Assembly: GCA_903859705.1 (NCBI GenBank)
Contig: CAIONQ010000070.1
Location: 1-34,848, forward strand
Length of the DNA: 34,848 nucleotides
Source of the DNA: an uncultured Chthonomonas sp.
GTDB lineage: Bacteria > Armatimonadota > Chthonomonadetes > Chthonomonadales > Chthonomonadaceae
Direction: 5' to 3'
Shown: in pieces, positions 8,624 to 13,789 of the stretch
Layout of the letters: each line of letters starts with the position of its first letter
How positions within the stretch are numbered: position 1 is the stretch's first letter
The notes under the pieces: generated by a model
Databases searched by the model: none
Told to the model about the DNA's origin: nothing
What the model saw: the letters and a program-made list of their open reading frames with translations, nothing else
Position numbers and translations under genes: made by a program

Positions 8624-9811
8624 ATGACATCTAAGTTACGTATGTGCGGCGCAATTCTGTTTGCGGCGGCCACTTTGAGCATTCTATCGCCTGTTGCGGC
8701 ATCTGCACAGGCTTCGGTTTCGGCGAAATCGGCGACGATTGCGAACCAACTCACGACATGGTCTACCGTGCCTGTGAATGCCGCTTCTGCGGGATCGATT
8801 CCGGATTTGACAGTAAGCCAGTTTAACCCGGCACTTTGAACCCTGACTTCCGTTAAGCTTACCTATAACTGGACATCTCACCAGGACTGCTTCATTAAGA
8901 ATACCGACGTGGTTGATGAGATTTTCTACCTTGATGAATCGGTGCTTGTGTTTTCAATCCTGCCAAATGGCCAGATGCTTGCGGGTGGCCCGCCAGATTT
9001 GACACTTGGCTACTCTGCTTACGATCCTATATTCGGACTGGATATCGCGAGCGGCCCACTACCTGTTGGCTCGTCTCTCTCGGCTGGACCCGTTGATAAA
9101 TCCGGCACAACTACTGTAACCTTAAGTGTTAACAGCGGAGACGATCTTTCTCCGTACTATGGCACTGGCCTTGTGAGCTTCCCCACCACGGGCCTTGGTA
9201 CATTTACCCTGAACGCCATGGGCGGCAACTACGATACGGGCAGCACCACTACTTGCGGTGCAAGCATCTCCATTCAGTACAACTACATCCCGGCAAGCCC
9301 ATACTTTGTAACGTACACTCAGGGTGGCTGGCATGCACCCGCGGCAGGCGGCAATCCTGGCGCGATATTGAATGCAGGTTGGCGACTGGCAGTGCCATCT
9401 GGCACTATTTCGATTGGCACAAACAAGCTGTACGCCTTTGATAGTGCGGCAGCTGTTCAGGCATTTTTGCCGCAGGGCGGGCCGAACAAGGCTTTACCTG
9501 GCAGCGTGCTGAATTCGACTAACACCAAGACTGGCAATATTGCCGGGCAGCTGCTATCCGTGAAACTGGCTGTTGGTTTCTCCAATTCTGGAGTGTATAA
9601 GGCAGGCCTTGGTGGGCTGACGATACAGAGCGGCCCGCTTGCAGGCAAATCTGTAAACTTCCTGGTTTCGCTTGCCGATGCACTGCTTGGAGGCACCGCT
9701 GTGCCTGCGGGAACACCTGCTAAGGTGAGTATCGACGATGTATCTACGGCGCTAAACAACATCAACAACTGTTTTGATGGTGGAAGCAAGGGCAACGGTT
9801 ACGTAAAGTAA
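8624..9811 (+). pseudogene. Choice-of-anchor-E-like secreted protein gene interrupted by an in-frame TGA
   Basis: Read through a TGA at 8837-8839, one frame runs from 8624 to 9811 and would give about 395 residues. The first 71 codons encode a signal peptide (cleavage near ASA-QA) and the start of a choice-of-anchor-E-like beta-sandwich: TTWSTVPV, then FNPAL, stop, TLTSVKLTYNW. The family usually reads FNP-x-LGTLTSV, so the stop falls exactly on a conserved glycine and is one base from GGA. The part after the stop continues in frame (DEIFYLDESVLVF, YYGTG, NYDTGSTTTCGASISIQYNYIP). AAAGG lies eight bases before the ATG at 8624. A GTG at 8909 could restart only a truncated, signal-less product. 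The likely explanations are a recent nonsense mutation or a sequencing error. No C-terminal PEP-CTERM anchor is visible. Confidence 0.75.
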
Positions 9812-9896: not shown

Positions 9897-11582
9897 TCAT
9901 TCTAAACGCGTATCTGGCGCATCCGCTGCTGCGGGAAGAGTTATAGTAACTTCCGTTCCTACCCCCACTTCGCTGCTGAACTCCAGCGTGCCACCGTGCG
10001 CTTCTATAATCCCCTTAACAATAGAGAGGCCAAGGCCTGTGCCACCGGTTGGGCGTGTTCGAGAGGAATCTATTCTATAAAACCGCTCCCCGAGATGAGC
10101 CAGGTGCTCTGGTGCAATCCCTTCGCCATGATCTCGAACGGTAAATACTGCCTTGCCATCACTCTGCCGGGCGGATACATGCACCATGCCACCATTTGGA
10201 GAGTAGTTAATGGCGTTATCCAGCAGGTTTTTGAATACGCGAACCAGCTCCTGTTGATTGCCGCTCACCATGAGATCGGAATCTGGAGGCATGTAATCGA
10301 TGATCACTTCATGCCGTGGCTTTACCGTTTTAATTGCTTCTGTGAGAATCTCTGGCGCTGTTAGCAACGTGCGGCTGCCCGCTGCGAGGCCGCTATCTGA
10401 GCGTGCCAGCAGGAGGAGATCCTGTACCAGCGAAGACATGCTGTTTGCCGCGGTATCTATCTCCTGCATAGACTGCTGATAATCATCCAGTGTAAGGTGG
10501 CTTCCCATAGATATAGAGAGGCTTGTATTGCCTTTAATTATCGTGAGAGGAGTTTTCAGTTCGTGCGATGCGTCTGCGGTAAATCTACGTTGCTGCTCTA
10601 ACAGGGCATTCTGGTGGCGAAACACATTCTCGAGCCTTTGTAGCATGCCATTAAACGTGCGCGCCAGAACCGAAAACTCATCTTCGCCTTCGGCTGGCAG
10701 CCTGCGAGAGAGGTCTCCAACGCCCATGGTTTCGGCGGCATTCGTCATCCAGGTGATACGATGTAGAACTCGACCCGTAAGATACCAGCCCCCAATGCTC
10801 GCAAATATCAGGCCAACTGGAAGCATAAATAGCAGCGCACGATCCAGCTCTTCCAGCGCGCGATATACATCCGTAAGTGGATACGGAATCTGCATGATGA
10901 TTGCGCCGAACCGTGGATCTCGCCGGGCAACTGTAAACACGCGTACGGCTGTGCCATCTACATTGATAGTGCTGTATTCAAGCAAACCTGGCGGAGACAG
11001 AGGTGCCTGTTTGGCTTTGTCTTGAAAGCGGCGAAACACATCGGCATCCCACGGAGCGAGGTGCCCACGCGTATCTAACACGCTGCCATCCAACGCGAAC
11101 ATGGCGGGCTTATAGGGGCCTTCCTCCTGTGGTGGGGGCCCGGGGCGGTTTTGCCGCATCCCATTATCCTGCGCGCCACGTGGATCTCCTCCACCGCCCG
11201 GCGCCCTCTCCGGTGGGTTGCCATCACCATCTGGCCCCTGGTGCCCTGGTTCCTGAGGGGCATCGTTGCCGGGCTGAGGCCCACCGGGTGCACGCCCCTG
11301 CCCCGGGTATTGCGGAATGCCCGGCTGTGGTGAATTGGGAGAGGCATCTCTGCCACCGGGCCCGCGCATTGGGCCACCGCGGCCGCCGGGACCGTGCCCC
11401 CTGCGCTGCAGCTCTCTATCTATAGATTGGAGCATGAGGCGCTTTACCGAATAGCGAACCGTGATGCCGAGCCCGCCAAGCAGCAAGCTAAGTGCCAGAA
11501 CGTTTACAGCAATGAGCTGTGTACGGACAGAGCCGGGCCGAAGAATGCGTGCTAACAGCGATCTGCGGGGCACTGGGTTCAT
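9897..11582 (-). CDS. Sensor histidine kinase with a Gly/Pro-rich extracytoplasmic insert
   Basis: The 561-residue inner-membrane kinase has TM1 at about 22-44, an extracytoplasmic region at 45-248, TM2 at about 249-270, a HAMP linker at 270-323, HisKA with the phospho-accepting His340 (ADASHELKTPL), and an HATPase domain (N456 in NLLDNAINYSP, DHGEGIAP at 484-491, GGTGLGLS at 513-520). Residues about 62-155 of the sensor region are a disordered Gly/Pro/Gln-rich tract; a small folded sensor domain follows (156-245). That tract is unusual for this family. The ATG at 11582 is chosen over the upstream frame because AGGAGG (11589-11594) lies six bases away, inside the regulator gene, whose TGA ends one base before this ATG. 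The pair is therefore translationally coupled. The input signal is unknown, but the divergent Gly/Pro-rich protein is an obvious candidate partner. Confidence 0.93.
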   Translation of the reverse strand: MNPVPRRSLLARILRPGSVRTQLIAVNVLALSLLLGGLGITVRYSVKRLMLQSIDRELQRRGHGPGGRGGPMRGPGGRDASPNSPQPGIPQYPGQGRAPGGPQPGNDAPQEPGHQGPDGDGNPPERAPGGGGDPRGAQDNGMRQNRPGPPPQEEGPYKPAMFALDGSVLDTRGHLAPWDADVFRRFQDKAKQAPLSPPGLLEYSTINVDGTAVRVFTVARRDPRFGAIIMQIPYPLTDVYRALEELDRALLFMLPVGLIFASIGGWYLTGRVLHRITWMTNAAETMGVGDLSRRLPAEGEDEFSVLARTFNGMLQRLENVFRHQNALLEQQRRFTADASHELKTPLTIIKGNTSLSISMGSHLTLDDYQQSMQEIDTAANSMSSLVQDLLLLARSDSGLAAGSRTLLTAPEILTEAIKTVKPRHEVIIDYMPPDSDLMVSGNQQELVRVFKNLLDNAINYSPNGGMVHVSARQSDGKAVFTVRDHGEGIAPEHLAHLGERFYRIDSSRTRPTGGTGLGLSIVKGIIEAHGGTLEFSSEVGVGTEVTITLPAAADAPDTRLE

Positions 11583-11583
11583 A

Positions 11584-12267
11584 TCACGCCTCCTGCGCAT
11601 CTGGCAGGCGTAGAGTGTATCCCACACCATGGACGGTGTGAATCAGTTTGACCTCATAGTTTGCATCTATCTTCTTGCGGAGCATACGAATGTACACATC
11701 TACGGTGTTTGAGTATGAATCTTCATTCATCCAAACTCGCTCTTGAATAGCTTCACGAGATAGCACCTGGCTCTCGTGCGCGGCAAGTGCTTCCAGGAGT
11801 TCGTATTCACGGTGGCTCAGGTTAATATCGTCTGCACCTCTACGAACTCGGTGCTGTGCTGTATCTATTTCCAGATCGCCAACCCGGATAATGCGTACTT
11901 TGTTGACCTTATCTCTGCGTACAAGTGCGCGAACGCGGGCCAGAAGTTCTTGAAAATCGAAGGGCTTTGGCAGGTAATCATCTGCACCCAGATCCAGCCC
12001 TTTAATTTTATCTGGCGTAGTATCTCGGGCAGTAAGCATCATAATGGGCGTTTTGTTGCGCTGCCCACGGAGGTTTTCACAAACAGACCACCCATCCATT
12101 TTTGGAAGCATTATGTCCAGAAGAATGATGGAGTAGGTGTTTTCTTCTGCCAGGCGGAGCCCTTCCAGGCCATCTGCAGCGGTATCCACGGTATAGCCAG
12201 CTTCTTCCAGCCCTCGCCTCATAAGGCGTGAAATCCCAGGTTCATCTTCTACAAGCAGAACGCGCAT
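11584..12267 (-). CDS. OmpR/PhoB-family response regulator
   Basis: This 227-residue cytoplasmic DNA-binding regulator has a receiver domain (1-115) with the acidic pocket E7-D8, phospho-acceptor Asp51 (LLDIMLPKMDG), Thr79 and Lys101. A winged-helix trans-activation domain (about 128-222) follows, with LSHREYELLEAL and the recognition-helix region NTVDVYIRMLRKKID. It receives phosphate from the kinase encoded one base downstream. The start ATG at 12267 has GAGGGT a few bases upstream. The regulator gene is transcribed away from the Gly/Pro-rich protein gene, so it probably controls both its own operon and that gene from the 327-bp region between them. Confidence 0.96.
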   Translation of the reverse strand: MRVLLVEDEPGISRLMRRGLEEAGYTVDTAADGLEGLRLAEENTYSIILLDIMLPKMDGWSVCENLRGQRNKTPIMMLTARDTTPDKIKGLDLGADDYLPKPFDFQELLARVRALVRRDKVNKVRIIRVGDLEIDTAQHRVRRGADDINLSHREYELLEALAAHESQVLSREAIQERVWMNEDSYSNTVDVYIRMLRKKIDANYEVKLIHTVHGVGYTLRLPDAQEA

Positions 12268-12594
12268 CTGGTTACCCTCATCTAATGCTATCTACCGCAC
12301 ATTGGAACTGCGGCTACGCTACGTGCGAGCAGGCTTCTGCGCGGCACATACGCACATACAGATTATATGCGGTTTACAGATGAAAACAAGATGAAATACG
12401 AGCTTTTCGGACGTAAACAACTTACCGACAGGCGTGGATGTGAGCATAAAAAAGTTCTTACAAAGAATATTTTGCGTTCACGTGGTTTTCATTTTCTCCT
12501 GAGAGAATACAGATGTCAGGGCGAACGAAGACCTGAGTGATTTAAAGATTGCGGTGAACTAACCACCTGATCTGACAGCGAGAGGAGCACGACG
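12268..12594. promoter_or_regulatory. Divergent regulatory region with candidate response-regulator repeats
   Basis: The region separates the regulator gene from the Gly/Pro-rich secreted protein gene. AGATGAAA occurs twice in direct orientation at 12378-12385 and 12389-12396, a repeat pitch of 11 bases, the spacing at which OmpR-family regulators bind as tandem dimers. A related motif on the other strand (AATGAAAA) lies at about 12486-12493. AT-rich promoter-like sequence fills 12440-12500, but I could not fix -35/-10 boxes. AGGAG at about 12583 serves the plus-strand gene. Regulator binding is an inference from spacing and gene context. Confidence 0.45.
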
Positions 12595-13710
12595 ATGAAA
12601 ACACGACGCATGAACAGAAATCGGCCGGGCACGATGATGGCAGCCCGAAATGCAGGACGCACACTGGCGATGGCGCTTGCGGCGGCAGGAACTCTGGCCG
12701 CGACGGTTGCTCTCGCTCAGCCCCCCGGCGGCGGCCAGGGCGGCGAATTTGGCCCACCTCCCGGTGGCGGGCAGTTCGGCCCTCCCCCCAATGGACAGGG
12801 CCAGCGCCCTGGTGGACCGATGGGCGGCATGCAGGTGAGCATTGTAATGATCCCTGCTGAGGCTCTGAAGGCTCCGCTGGCTTTGAACGATGATCAGGTT
12901 AAGAAGATAGCTGCGATCCAGAAGAAGGCCATGGCTGGCCGGCGACAGGGTGGCCCTGGCCAAGGCGGACCAGGTGGCTTCGGTGGCCCTGGTGGTCCCG
13001 GTGGTCCCGGTGGACCTGGACAGGGTGGACCCGGCGGCTTTGGTGGGCAGGGTGGACCTGGACAGGGTGGCCCCGGCGGCTTTGGTGGGCAGGGTGGACC
13101 CGGACAGGGTGGACCCGGCGGCTTTGGTGGGCAGGGTGGCCAGCGCGGTGGCCAGGATCAGAAACTGGTTAAGGACATCATGGATGTGCTGACCGATGAG
13201 CAAAAGACCAAAGTGCCTGCGGTGTTGAAACAGTTCGGCGCCCTGCCTATGGCAGGCATACCGATTGAGGCGTCCACTGCACTCAAACTGACAAGTGCTC
13301 AGTTCACTAAGATAGCCACCATCGCTGAGGCTGCCCGTGAGGCAGACCGCAAGACGATGGACGAGGCCAGGGCAAGCGGTGATTTTGAGGCAGTTCGGGA
13401 CGCAATGCAGCAATCTCGGAAAGCGGTGCAGGACAAGGTTAAGGCTGTGCTGACCGAAGACCAGAAAAAGGCTCTTGCAGACTGGGAGAAGGATCACCCA
13501 AGGCGTGGACCGGGTGGTCCGGGTGGACCAGGCGGGTTTGGCCCTGGCGGACCGGGTGGACCAGGTGGCTTTGGCCCCGGCGGCCCGGGTGGCCCCGGTG
13601 GATTTGGACCGGGCGGGCAGGGCGGACCTGGTAATGGCCCGAATGCCCCGGAGGACAGAACCCCTCCGCCAGCTGACGACCATGACATCCGCGGTGGTTT
13701 GCCGCTTTAG
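12595..13710 (+). CDS. Secreted Gly/Pro-rich protein with Spy/CpxP-like (LTxxQ) segments
   Basis: The 371-residue protein has a long signal peptide (cleavage likely after VALA, residue 41). The mature part alternates low-complexity Gly/Pro/Gln/Phe tracts with two helical blocks. Block 1 (about 85-115) contains LALNDDQVKKIAAIQKKA. Block 2 (about 185-300) contains VLTDEQK, LKLTSAQFTKIATI and VLTEDQKKALADWEK, the LT-x-x-Q pattern of Spy/CpxP periplasmic chaperone-like proteins. The first tract includes three 14-residue repeats (GGPGQGGPGGFGGQ) and the C-terminal tract three 11-residue repeats (GGPGGPGGFGP). AGGAG sits seven bases before the ATG. It is divergent from a kinase/regulator pair whose sensor also has a Gly/Pro-rich insert, which suggests envelope-stress feedback like cpxP with cpxRA; this is inference. 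A strong terminator follows. Confidence 0.85.
   Translation: MKTRRMNRNRPGTMMAARNAGRTLAMALAAAGTLAATVALAQPPGGGQGGEFGPPPGGGQFGPPPNGQGQRPGGPMGGMQVSIVMIPAEALKAPLALNDDQVKKIAAIQKKAMAGRRQGGPGQGGPGGFGGPGGPGGPGGPGQGGPGGFGGQGGPGQGGPGGFGGQGGPGQGGPGGFGGQGGQRGGQDQKLVKDIMDVLTDEQKTKVPAVLKQFGALPMAGIPIEASTALKLTSAQFTKIATIAEAAREADRKTMDEARASGDFEAVRDAMQQSRKAVQDKVKAVLTEDQKKALADWEKDHPRRGPGGPGGPGGFGPGGPGGPGGFGPGGPGGPGGFGPGGQGGPGNGPNAPEDRTPPPADDHDIRGGLPL
13009..13134 (+). repeat. Three tandem 42-bp coding repeats
   Basis: Units at 13009-13050, 13051-13092 and 13093-13134 differ at only a few positions, mostly silent, and each encodes the same 14 residues (GGPGQGGPGGFGGQ). Near identity at DNA level suggests recent slippage or unequal recombination, so copy number probably varies between strains. 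Confidence 0.92.
13513..13611 (+). repeat. Three tandem 33-bp coding repeats
   Basis: Units at 13513-13545, 13546-13578 and 13579-13611 each encode GGPGGPGGFGP. They differ at many third codon positions (GGT/GGC/GGA and CCG/CCA/CCC), so this array is older than the 42-bp one or is held by selection on the protein sequence. Confidence 0.9.
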
Positions 13711-13726
13711 TACGCTGTGAATTACG

Positions 13727-13772
13727 GCGGGCACCGTTTCGAGGGTTTCCTCGAAACGGTGCCCGCTTTTTT
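13727..13772 (+). terminator. Rho-independent terminator after the Gly/Pro-rich protein gene
   Basis: A perfect 18-bp stem (13727-13744 with 13749-13766) with loop GTTT is followed by TTTTTT (13767-13772). It lies 17 bases after the stop codon and between convergent genes. There is no T-run on the minus-strand side, so it mainly serves the plus-strand gene. Confidence 0.95.
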
Positions 13773-13789
13773 GTTCCTATGCGCGGTTG

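Follow-up and report, generated by a model that had tools for sequence, protein, structure and literature searches.

In this article I discuss a two-component system from an uncultured Chthonomonas sp. (Armatimonadota) and the gene divergent from it, at positions 9897 to 13710 of a stretch of 34,848 nucleotides (hereafter the window) that is one entire contig (CAIONQ010000070.1, C70 in our numbering) of a 6.24-Mb draft genome (GCA_903859705.1). On the minus strand lie an OmpR/PhoB-type response regulator (11584..12267; Response_reg and Trans_reg_C domains by Pfam) and a sensor histidine kinase (9897..11582), and on the plus strand a gene for a secreted tandem Spy/LTxxQ protein with three tracts rich in glycine and proline (GP-rich; 12595..13710). 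The kinase open reading frame (ORF) in full runs from 9897 to 11630 on the minus strand (577 aa), but its true start is probably methionine 17 at 11582, because AGGAGG precedes that codon and the regulator's stop lies one base before it; regulator and kinase are probably translationally coupled. Behind the secreted gene stands an intrinsic terminator (13726..13773, plus strand), a 19-bp perfect stem followed by six T residues (-40.5 kcal/mol, z -8.0). The same gene is overlain by an antisense ORF of 391 aa (12559-13734, minus strand) that is longer than the plus-strand frame, and the plus-strand frame is taken as the real gene since it is the one with homologues, a Shine-Dalgarno sequence, a promoter box and a terminator; an automatic gene caller could choose the wrong strand here.

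Pfam and AlphaFold2 together divide the kinase into a first transmembrane helix (TM1), a GP-rich tract, a PAS/Cache-like domain, a second transmembrane helix (TM2) and then HAMP, HisKA and HATPase_c, the last three being Pfam detections. The model of residues 35-345 runs from the TM1 helix through about 90 disordered residues into a small strand-helix-strand-strand-strand domain and on to TM2, and since the tract precedes this confidently modelled domain it is best described as an insert ahead of the sensor domain. The Gly/Pro/Gln-rich disordered insert itself (11100..11417, minus strand; ORF residues 72-177, about 105 residues, 47% Gly plus Pro) separates the TM1 helix from the sensor domain's first strand, with a predicted local distance difference test score (pLDDT) below 50 over most of its length, so that the extracytoplasmic tract described in an earlier reading of the sequence alone (the sequence-only reading) is indeed there. 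The PAS/Cache-like domain (10878..11105, minus strand; about residues 176-251) has pLDDT mostly above 90 and matches WalK, CzcS (Z 6.6), PhoQ and Cache sensors at Z 6-8, which is the level of a common fold only. Scanning named genomes with just the kinase as query brought up generic kinases, aligned mostly across the kinase domain, and was no help for synteny.

The secreted protein opens with a hydrophobic signal peptide region (12595..12717, plus strand; residues 1-41, ending VALA-Q), followed by a glutamine, Q42, that is invariant in the first alignment of the family. Its tracts occupy residues 28-92, 101-201 and 289-370, and four LTxxQ-like motifs are found at residues 97, 199, 232 and 286, in line with the sequence-only reading, which described a divergent secreted protein with similar tracts and LTxxQ blocks. 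The family alignment reveals an internal duplication with a Spy-type motif pair in each half: repeat 1 (12844..13260, plus strand; residues 84-118 and 187-222) is split by a GP insert (12949-13152), and repeat 2 comes next (13261..13494, plus strand; residues 223-300). Most of the inner insert is encoded by a 42-bp tandem repeat (13009..13139, plus strand; 3.1 copies, 96%), and a 33-bp tandem repeat (13519..13632, plus strand; 3.5 copies) lies in the GP tail. In the AlphaFold2 model the ordered core is entirely helical, most of it at a pLDDT above 90; the tracts are disordered, and one of them interrupts repeat 1.

On its own the window protein misses the gathering cut-off of the Pfam LTXXQ family (PF07813; 22.8 versus 24.3 bits), and Foldseek alone gave no significant match for it; the Spy assignment is made because of the family profile match and the realigned structures. 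On repeat 1 the family profile finds Spy structures (E 5.6e-7), on repeat 2 it finds a VirG-like LTxxQ protein, structural alignment of repeat 2 yields Z 8.9 for the VirG-like protein, 8.4 for Spy and 7.5 for CpxP, and four family members (L161, L212, L237 and L253, the L numbers denoting loci) pass the PF07813 cut-off at 34-44 bits. Judged from this modelled fold, the protein is most likely an extracytoplasmic ATP-independent chaperone, and two Spy repeats per chain suggest a possible single-chain pseudo-dimer, the Spy family being marked by a cradle-shaped antiparallel dimer with chaperone activity. The family is present in 180 of the 291 genomes of the phylum. L166:3143-4006, which lies upstream of a related regulator, encodes a secreted Gln- and GP-rich protein with MTPxQ-like motifs, possibly a Spy-like member missed by the profile.

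How exceptional is the composition that kinase and neighbour share? Against a background of 400 kb (318 genes) of the same genome, at least 50% Gly plus Pro over 40 residues is reached by only 2 genes, and when ten of the genome's own kinases were scored for Gly plus Pro the window kinase stood at 0.57 and the other nine at no more than 0.30. Within this genome the tract is thus unusual for a sensor kinase, and the composition that the two proteins have in common is genuine and stands out from the background. A chance composition of the tracts is ruled out by the 2 in 318, and DNA copying between kinase and secreted tracts was likewise rejected: they have no common DNA word longer than 10 bases, and their likeness is thus not a copied repeat.

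The kinase-regulator-secreted trio, for which the sequence-only reading had proposed a search in relatives, recurs across related genera (gene calls in relatives are ORF-based). The secreted gene is divergent from the kinase-regulator pair in L142, L143, L144, L146, L161, L237, L253 and L254, co-directional and upstream of the pair in L154, L165, L171 and L173, and adjoins the kinase in L156 and L180; in the sister genome of the window the regulator sits at the end of one contig (L141) and the secreted gene at the start of another (L220), and the two are likely adjacent there as well. Kinase-adjacent secreted genes are scattered across many branches of the family tree, and the 12 proteins of this kind that the tree includes are all rich in GP, with a median of 0.31 compared with 0.20 for the 57 non-adjacent ones (p = 9e-7, uncorrected for relatedness). 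In each of the eight genomes that have both kinds the adjacent secreted protein is GP-richer than the non-adjacent paralogue, adjacency being presumed in one of them, and in a comparison over 44 loci, four of which were picked via the secreted gene, GP-rich secreted genes make up 18 of 79 directly beside the kinase-regulator pair and 3 of 172 farther out (p = 1e-7).

The case for shared wiring is strengthened by an element that the sequence-only reading does not mention, a conserved PhoB-like box in the intergenic regions, TTCAT-N6-TTCAT, a direct repeat of 11-bp period placed 10 bp before a -10-like hexamer. The window has one on the regulator side (12364..12395, minus strand; TTCATCTTGTTTTCAT, then 10 bp and CATATA(AT)) and one on the side of the secreted gene (12477..12508, plus strand; TTCACGTGGTTTTCAT, then 10 bp and GAGAAT), and the window contains no other match. 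Both thus fall in the gap between regulator and secreted gene, against 0.03 matches expected for the entire window; none of 100 shuffles gave two. No exact half-site pair was found in the 400 kb of own background. Among relatives, 11 of 16 loci have the box ahead of the secreted gene (0.017 in shuffles for the half-sites, 0.003 with the -10 included), its exact form precedes the regulator in 15 of 40, and 36 relatives hold 51 exact box-plus-(-10) sites versus 2 for the reversed control. Secreted genes detached from the kinase by 6 kb (L145, L147) have it as well, and it is also found before the second secreted paralogue of the window genome, on another contig (L212). Tandem half-sites over the -35 region, with a fixed 10-bp gap to the -10, give these promoters the layout of PhoB-type activation. 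The CpxP-like regulon wiring put forward in the sequence-only reading is accordingly supported at the level of sequence, by a conserved box of response-regulator type before both transcription units and by the recurring trio, and the partner regulator very probably turns on both units.

The box also leads beyond the trio, to further targets that include regulators. On the genome's own contig C24 an exact box precedes a DUF5666-like GP-rich secreted protein (L266:2036-3190), which is probably a distant target of this regulator or of a paralogue, and on its contig C98 the target is a MauG-like di-haem protein. In relatives the targets comprise DHOR di-haem oxidoreductases (L269, L278), YHYH secreted proteins in which a GP tract leads into a Spy-like LTxxQ segment and a GP tail (L270:1574-3133, L280:2057-3433), EF-hand GP-rich secreted proteins (L285, and L302 as judged by eye from the sequence), a CusB/HlyD-type fusion protein (L273) and an extracytoplasmic function (ECF) sigma factor (L283). 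Outside the trio families, 9 of 32 targets are GP-rich versus 2 of the 318 own background genes (p = 7e-9), and with the genes surrounding the targets in their loci as the reference the figures are 4 of 15 and 18 of 632 (p = 0.001). The box thus offers a ready regulon prediction (Spy-like proteins, YHYH-Spy fusions, DUF5666, EF-hand proteins, di-haem enzymes and efflux) that is testable in cultivated members. The L270 and L280 proteins are, in their own right, a domain fusion joining YHYH to a Spy module. In two genomes of family f24 (G078 and G079) the exact box-plus-(-10) sites number 8 to 12 each, far above the others; this may point to a large regulon, or to a different regulator with the same code.

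Taken as a whole, the locus looks to me like an autoregulated envelope-stress-type two-component system that controls the divergent Spy-like gene and includes a feedback step, a reading in which I have somewhat more confidence than doubt. The active PAS/Cache-like sensor kinase would cause the OmpR/PhoB-type regulator to bind the tandem TTCAT half-sites over the -35 region, the bound regulator would activate two divergent units, namely its own regulator-kinase operon and the secreted double-Spy gene, and the secreted product, acting as a chaperone outside the cytoplasm, would damp the sensor by a CpxP/ZraP-like negative feedback, with the GP tract of the kinase as a flexible antenna that either docks the secreted protein or merely spaces the domain. 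Feedback of this kind is proposed because it is the most economical reason for the kinase to be encoded repeatedly beside the secreted gene, and by analogy it is plausible, given that CpxP binds CpxA and inhibits CpxA autophosphorylation (PMC4160245). Some observations weigh against this feedback system. The box on the secreted side of the window has one T-to-C mismatch (TTCAC), and the promoter of the genome's own paralogous regulator on contig C76 contains an exact half-site pair, so the box may be shared; because paralogous regulators are preceded by such similar sites, binding of the box by the partner regulator is inferred. The divergent slot, moreover, can hold other genes: in genome G010 (L269:1-3522) the kinase-regulator pair is divergent from a DHOR gene that replaces the Spy-like gene, with a box on each side, and in L271 the slot is taken by a GP-rich protein without a Pfam match, so that the neighbour may simply be one target among others.

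The alternative that survives best concerns the tracts, and states that they are a lineage-wide low-complexity feature of extracytoplasmic proteins (an entropic bristle, a solubility tail or a spacer), the kinase tract being only a linker that binds nothing; I find the case for and against it evenly balanced. Many related kinases bear a tract without a secreted neighbour, and in L145/L147 a tract-bearing kinase is accompanied by a detached secreted protein that is nearly tract-free (GP 0.16) with its box kept, from which it follows that the kinase tract is not strictly tied to a partner; both observations also count against any direct contact between tracts. In addition, the AlphaFold2 sensor domain is complete without the tract, and the secreted tracts are tandem repeats and hence likely fast-evolving. 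A general feature of this sort does not sit easily, however, with tracts that are rare genome-wide and yet concentrated in the kinase, its neighbour and other box targets, with the richer adjacent protein in all eight genomes, or with the covariation of partner tracts in composition. Tract composition is more similar within matched kinase-secreted pairs than within permuted ones (p = 5e-5, relatedness uncontrolled), a likeness that stands at p = 0.016 without Gly and Pro and at p = 0.09 without Gln too; the Gly:Pro ratio is correlated between partner tracts (rho 0.64, over pairs that are not phylogenetically independent); and the Gly plus Pro of the kinase loop is somewhat higher where a secreted partner adjoins (median 47 versus 36 otherwise, p = 0.03). 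A tree-controlled test on supported branches only was left with just 2 pairs and had no power. Of the covariation in length or composition suggested by the sequence-only reading, then, composition holds up and length does not (rho 0.26, not significant), the latter in favour of a general feature, and the relatives it named as telling against it were found in part, in the form of the many tract-bearing kinases that lack the secreted neighbour.

It is possible, if rather doubtful, that the secreted protein is a plain regulon effector, a Spy-type chaperone without feedback, and that the divergent order reflects no more than shared promoters. Detached secreted genes that retain the box without adjacency fit this, as does the di-haem oxidoreductase in the divergent slot of L269, but adjacency to the kinase operon is repeated on many branches, and the head-to-tail arrangements of L154, L165 and L171 are not explained by a shared divergent promoter. 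I consider unlikely a Cus/Czc-type system that responds to metals or oxidants, in which the sensor would detect a metal or redox stress and the Spy-like, YHYH, di-haem peroxidase and efflux genes would be the response. Its attractions are the regulator, whose nearest NCBIfam family is the heavy-metal cztR_silR_copR (TIGR01387), the CzcS sensor domain among the fold matches, and box targets such as MauG/DHOR di-haem enzymes, YHYH proteins and the CusB/HlyD-type fusion protein; yet regulator (261 bits, cut-off 279) and kinase (198 against TIGR01386, cut-off 292) both fall under the family cut-offs, no metal-resistance gene is seen in the trio, and the kinase tract and sensor domain together hold no Cys and only three His, with Asp/Glu as possible metal ligands. 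Least probable by some distance is that the kinase senses a layer of secreted GP-rich protein through homotypic low-complexity contacts, accumulation of the protein titrating or co-condensing with the sensor and so switching the kinase off. Tract-to-tract binding or co-condensation, as put forward in the sequence-only reading, is speculative. If it were true, the disordered tract of a kinase would mimic the tracts of the proteins whose genes that kinase controls. Whether disordered sensor tracts read out secreted proteins becomes a concrete question of deletion and swap.

What is known of envelope-stress two-component systems that have Spy/CpxP accessory proteins comes mainly from Proteobacteria. 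The feedback system favoured here resembles CpxRA-CpxP of E. coli in its OmpR-type regulator-kinase operon, its divergent secreted LTxxQ gene and, as far as sequence can tell, one regulator box for both units; it differs in the disordered GP-rich sensor insert, in the tandem-duplicated Spy domain with long GP tracts and in the box, which is TTCAT-N6-TTCAT and not the GTAAA-N5-GTAAA of Cpx, and the kinase scores 134 bits against the CpxA equivalog (cut-off 486). With the Spy chaperone (PF07813) the secreted protein shares LTxxQ motifs, the helical Spy fold, secretion and apparent two-component control, and departs from it in having two Spy repeats per chain, a GP insert within repeat 1 and a GP tail. 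In ZraSR-ZraP, too, the gene of a secreted LTxxQ protein adjoins a two-component system, but ZraR is a sigma54 NtrC-type regulator, unlike the OmpR type (Response_reg plus Trans_reg_C) and the promoter with a -10 box seen here. PhoB boxes are tandem direct repeats of 11-bp period over the -35 region, and tandem binding to such pho-box direct repeats has been described (PMC3348028); the likeness extends to the repeats overlapping the -35 and their fixed spacing to the -10, whereas the targets seen here are mostly envelope proteins and none is for phosphate uptake, and the equivalog scores (PhoB 196, cut-off 296; PhoR 202.5, cut-off 334) were again too low. Identity as Cpx, Zra, Cus/Czc or PhoBR is ruled out by the features tested (family cut-offs, box and regulator type), and the system is therefore best placed as its own form of the accessory-protein two-component systems. 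The papers searched contain no description of it, which is weak evidence of novelty. The wiring familiar from Proteobacteria is thus seen in many genera of a phylum that has been little studied, apparently Armatimonadota to judge by the named kin loci L073-L080 and by prepilin motifs typical of that phylum. There it is combined with a promoter code of its own, a duplication of the Spy module and a sensor tract like that of the secreted targets. At the edge of the locus, the window also encodes at 8909-9811 on the plus strand, convergent with the kinase gene, a probable secreted protein with a match to a choice-of-anchor E domain.

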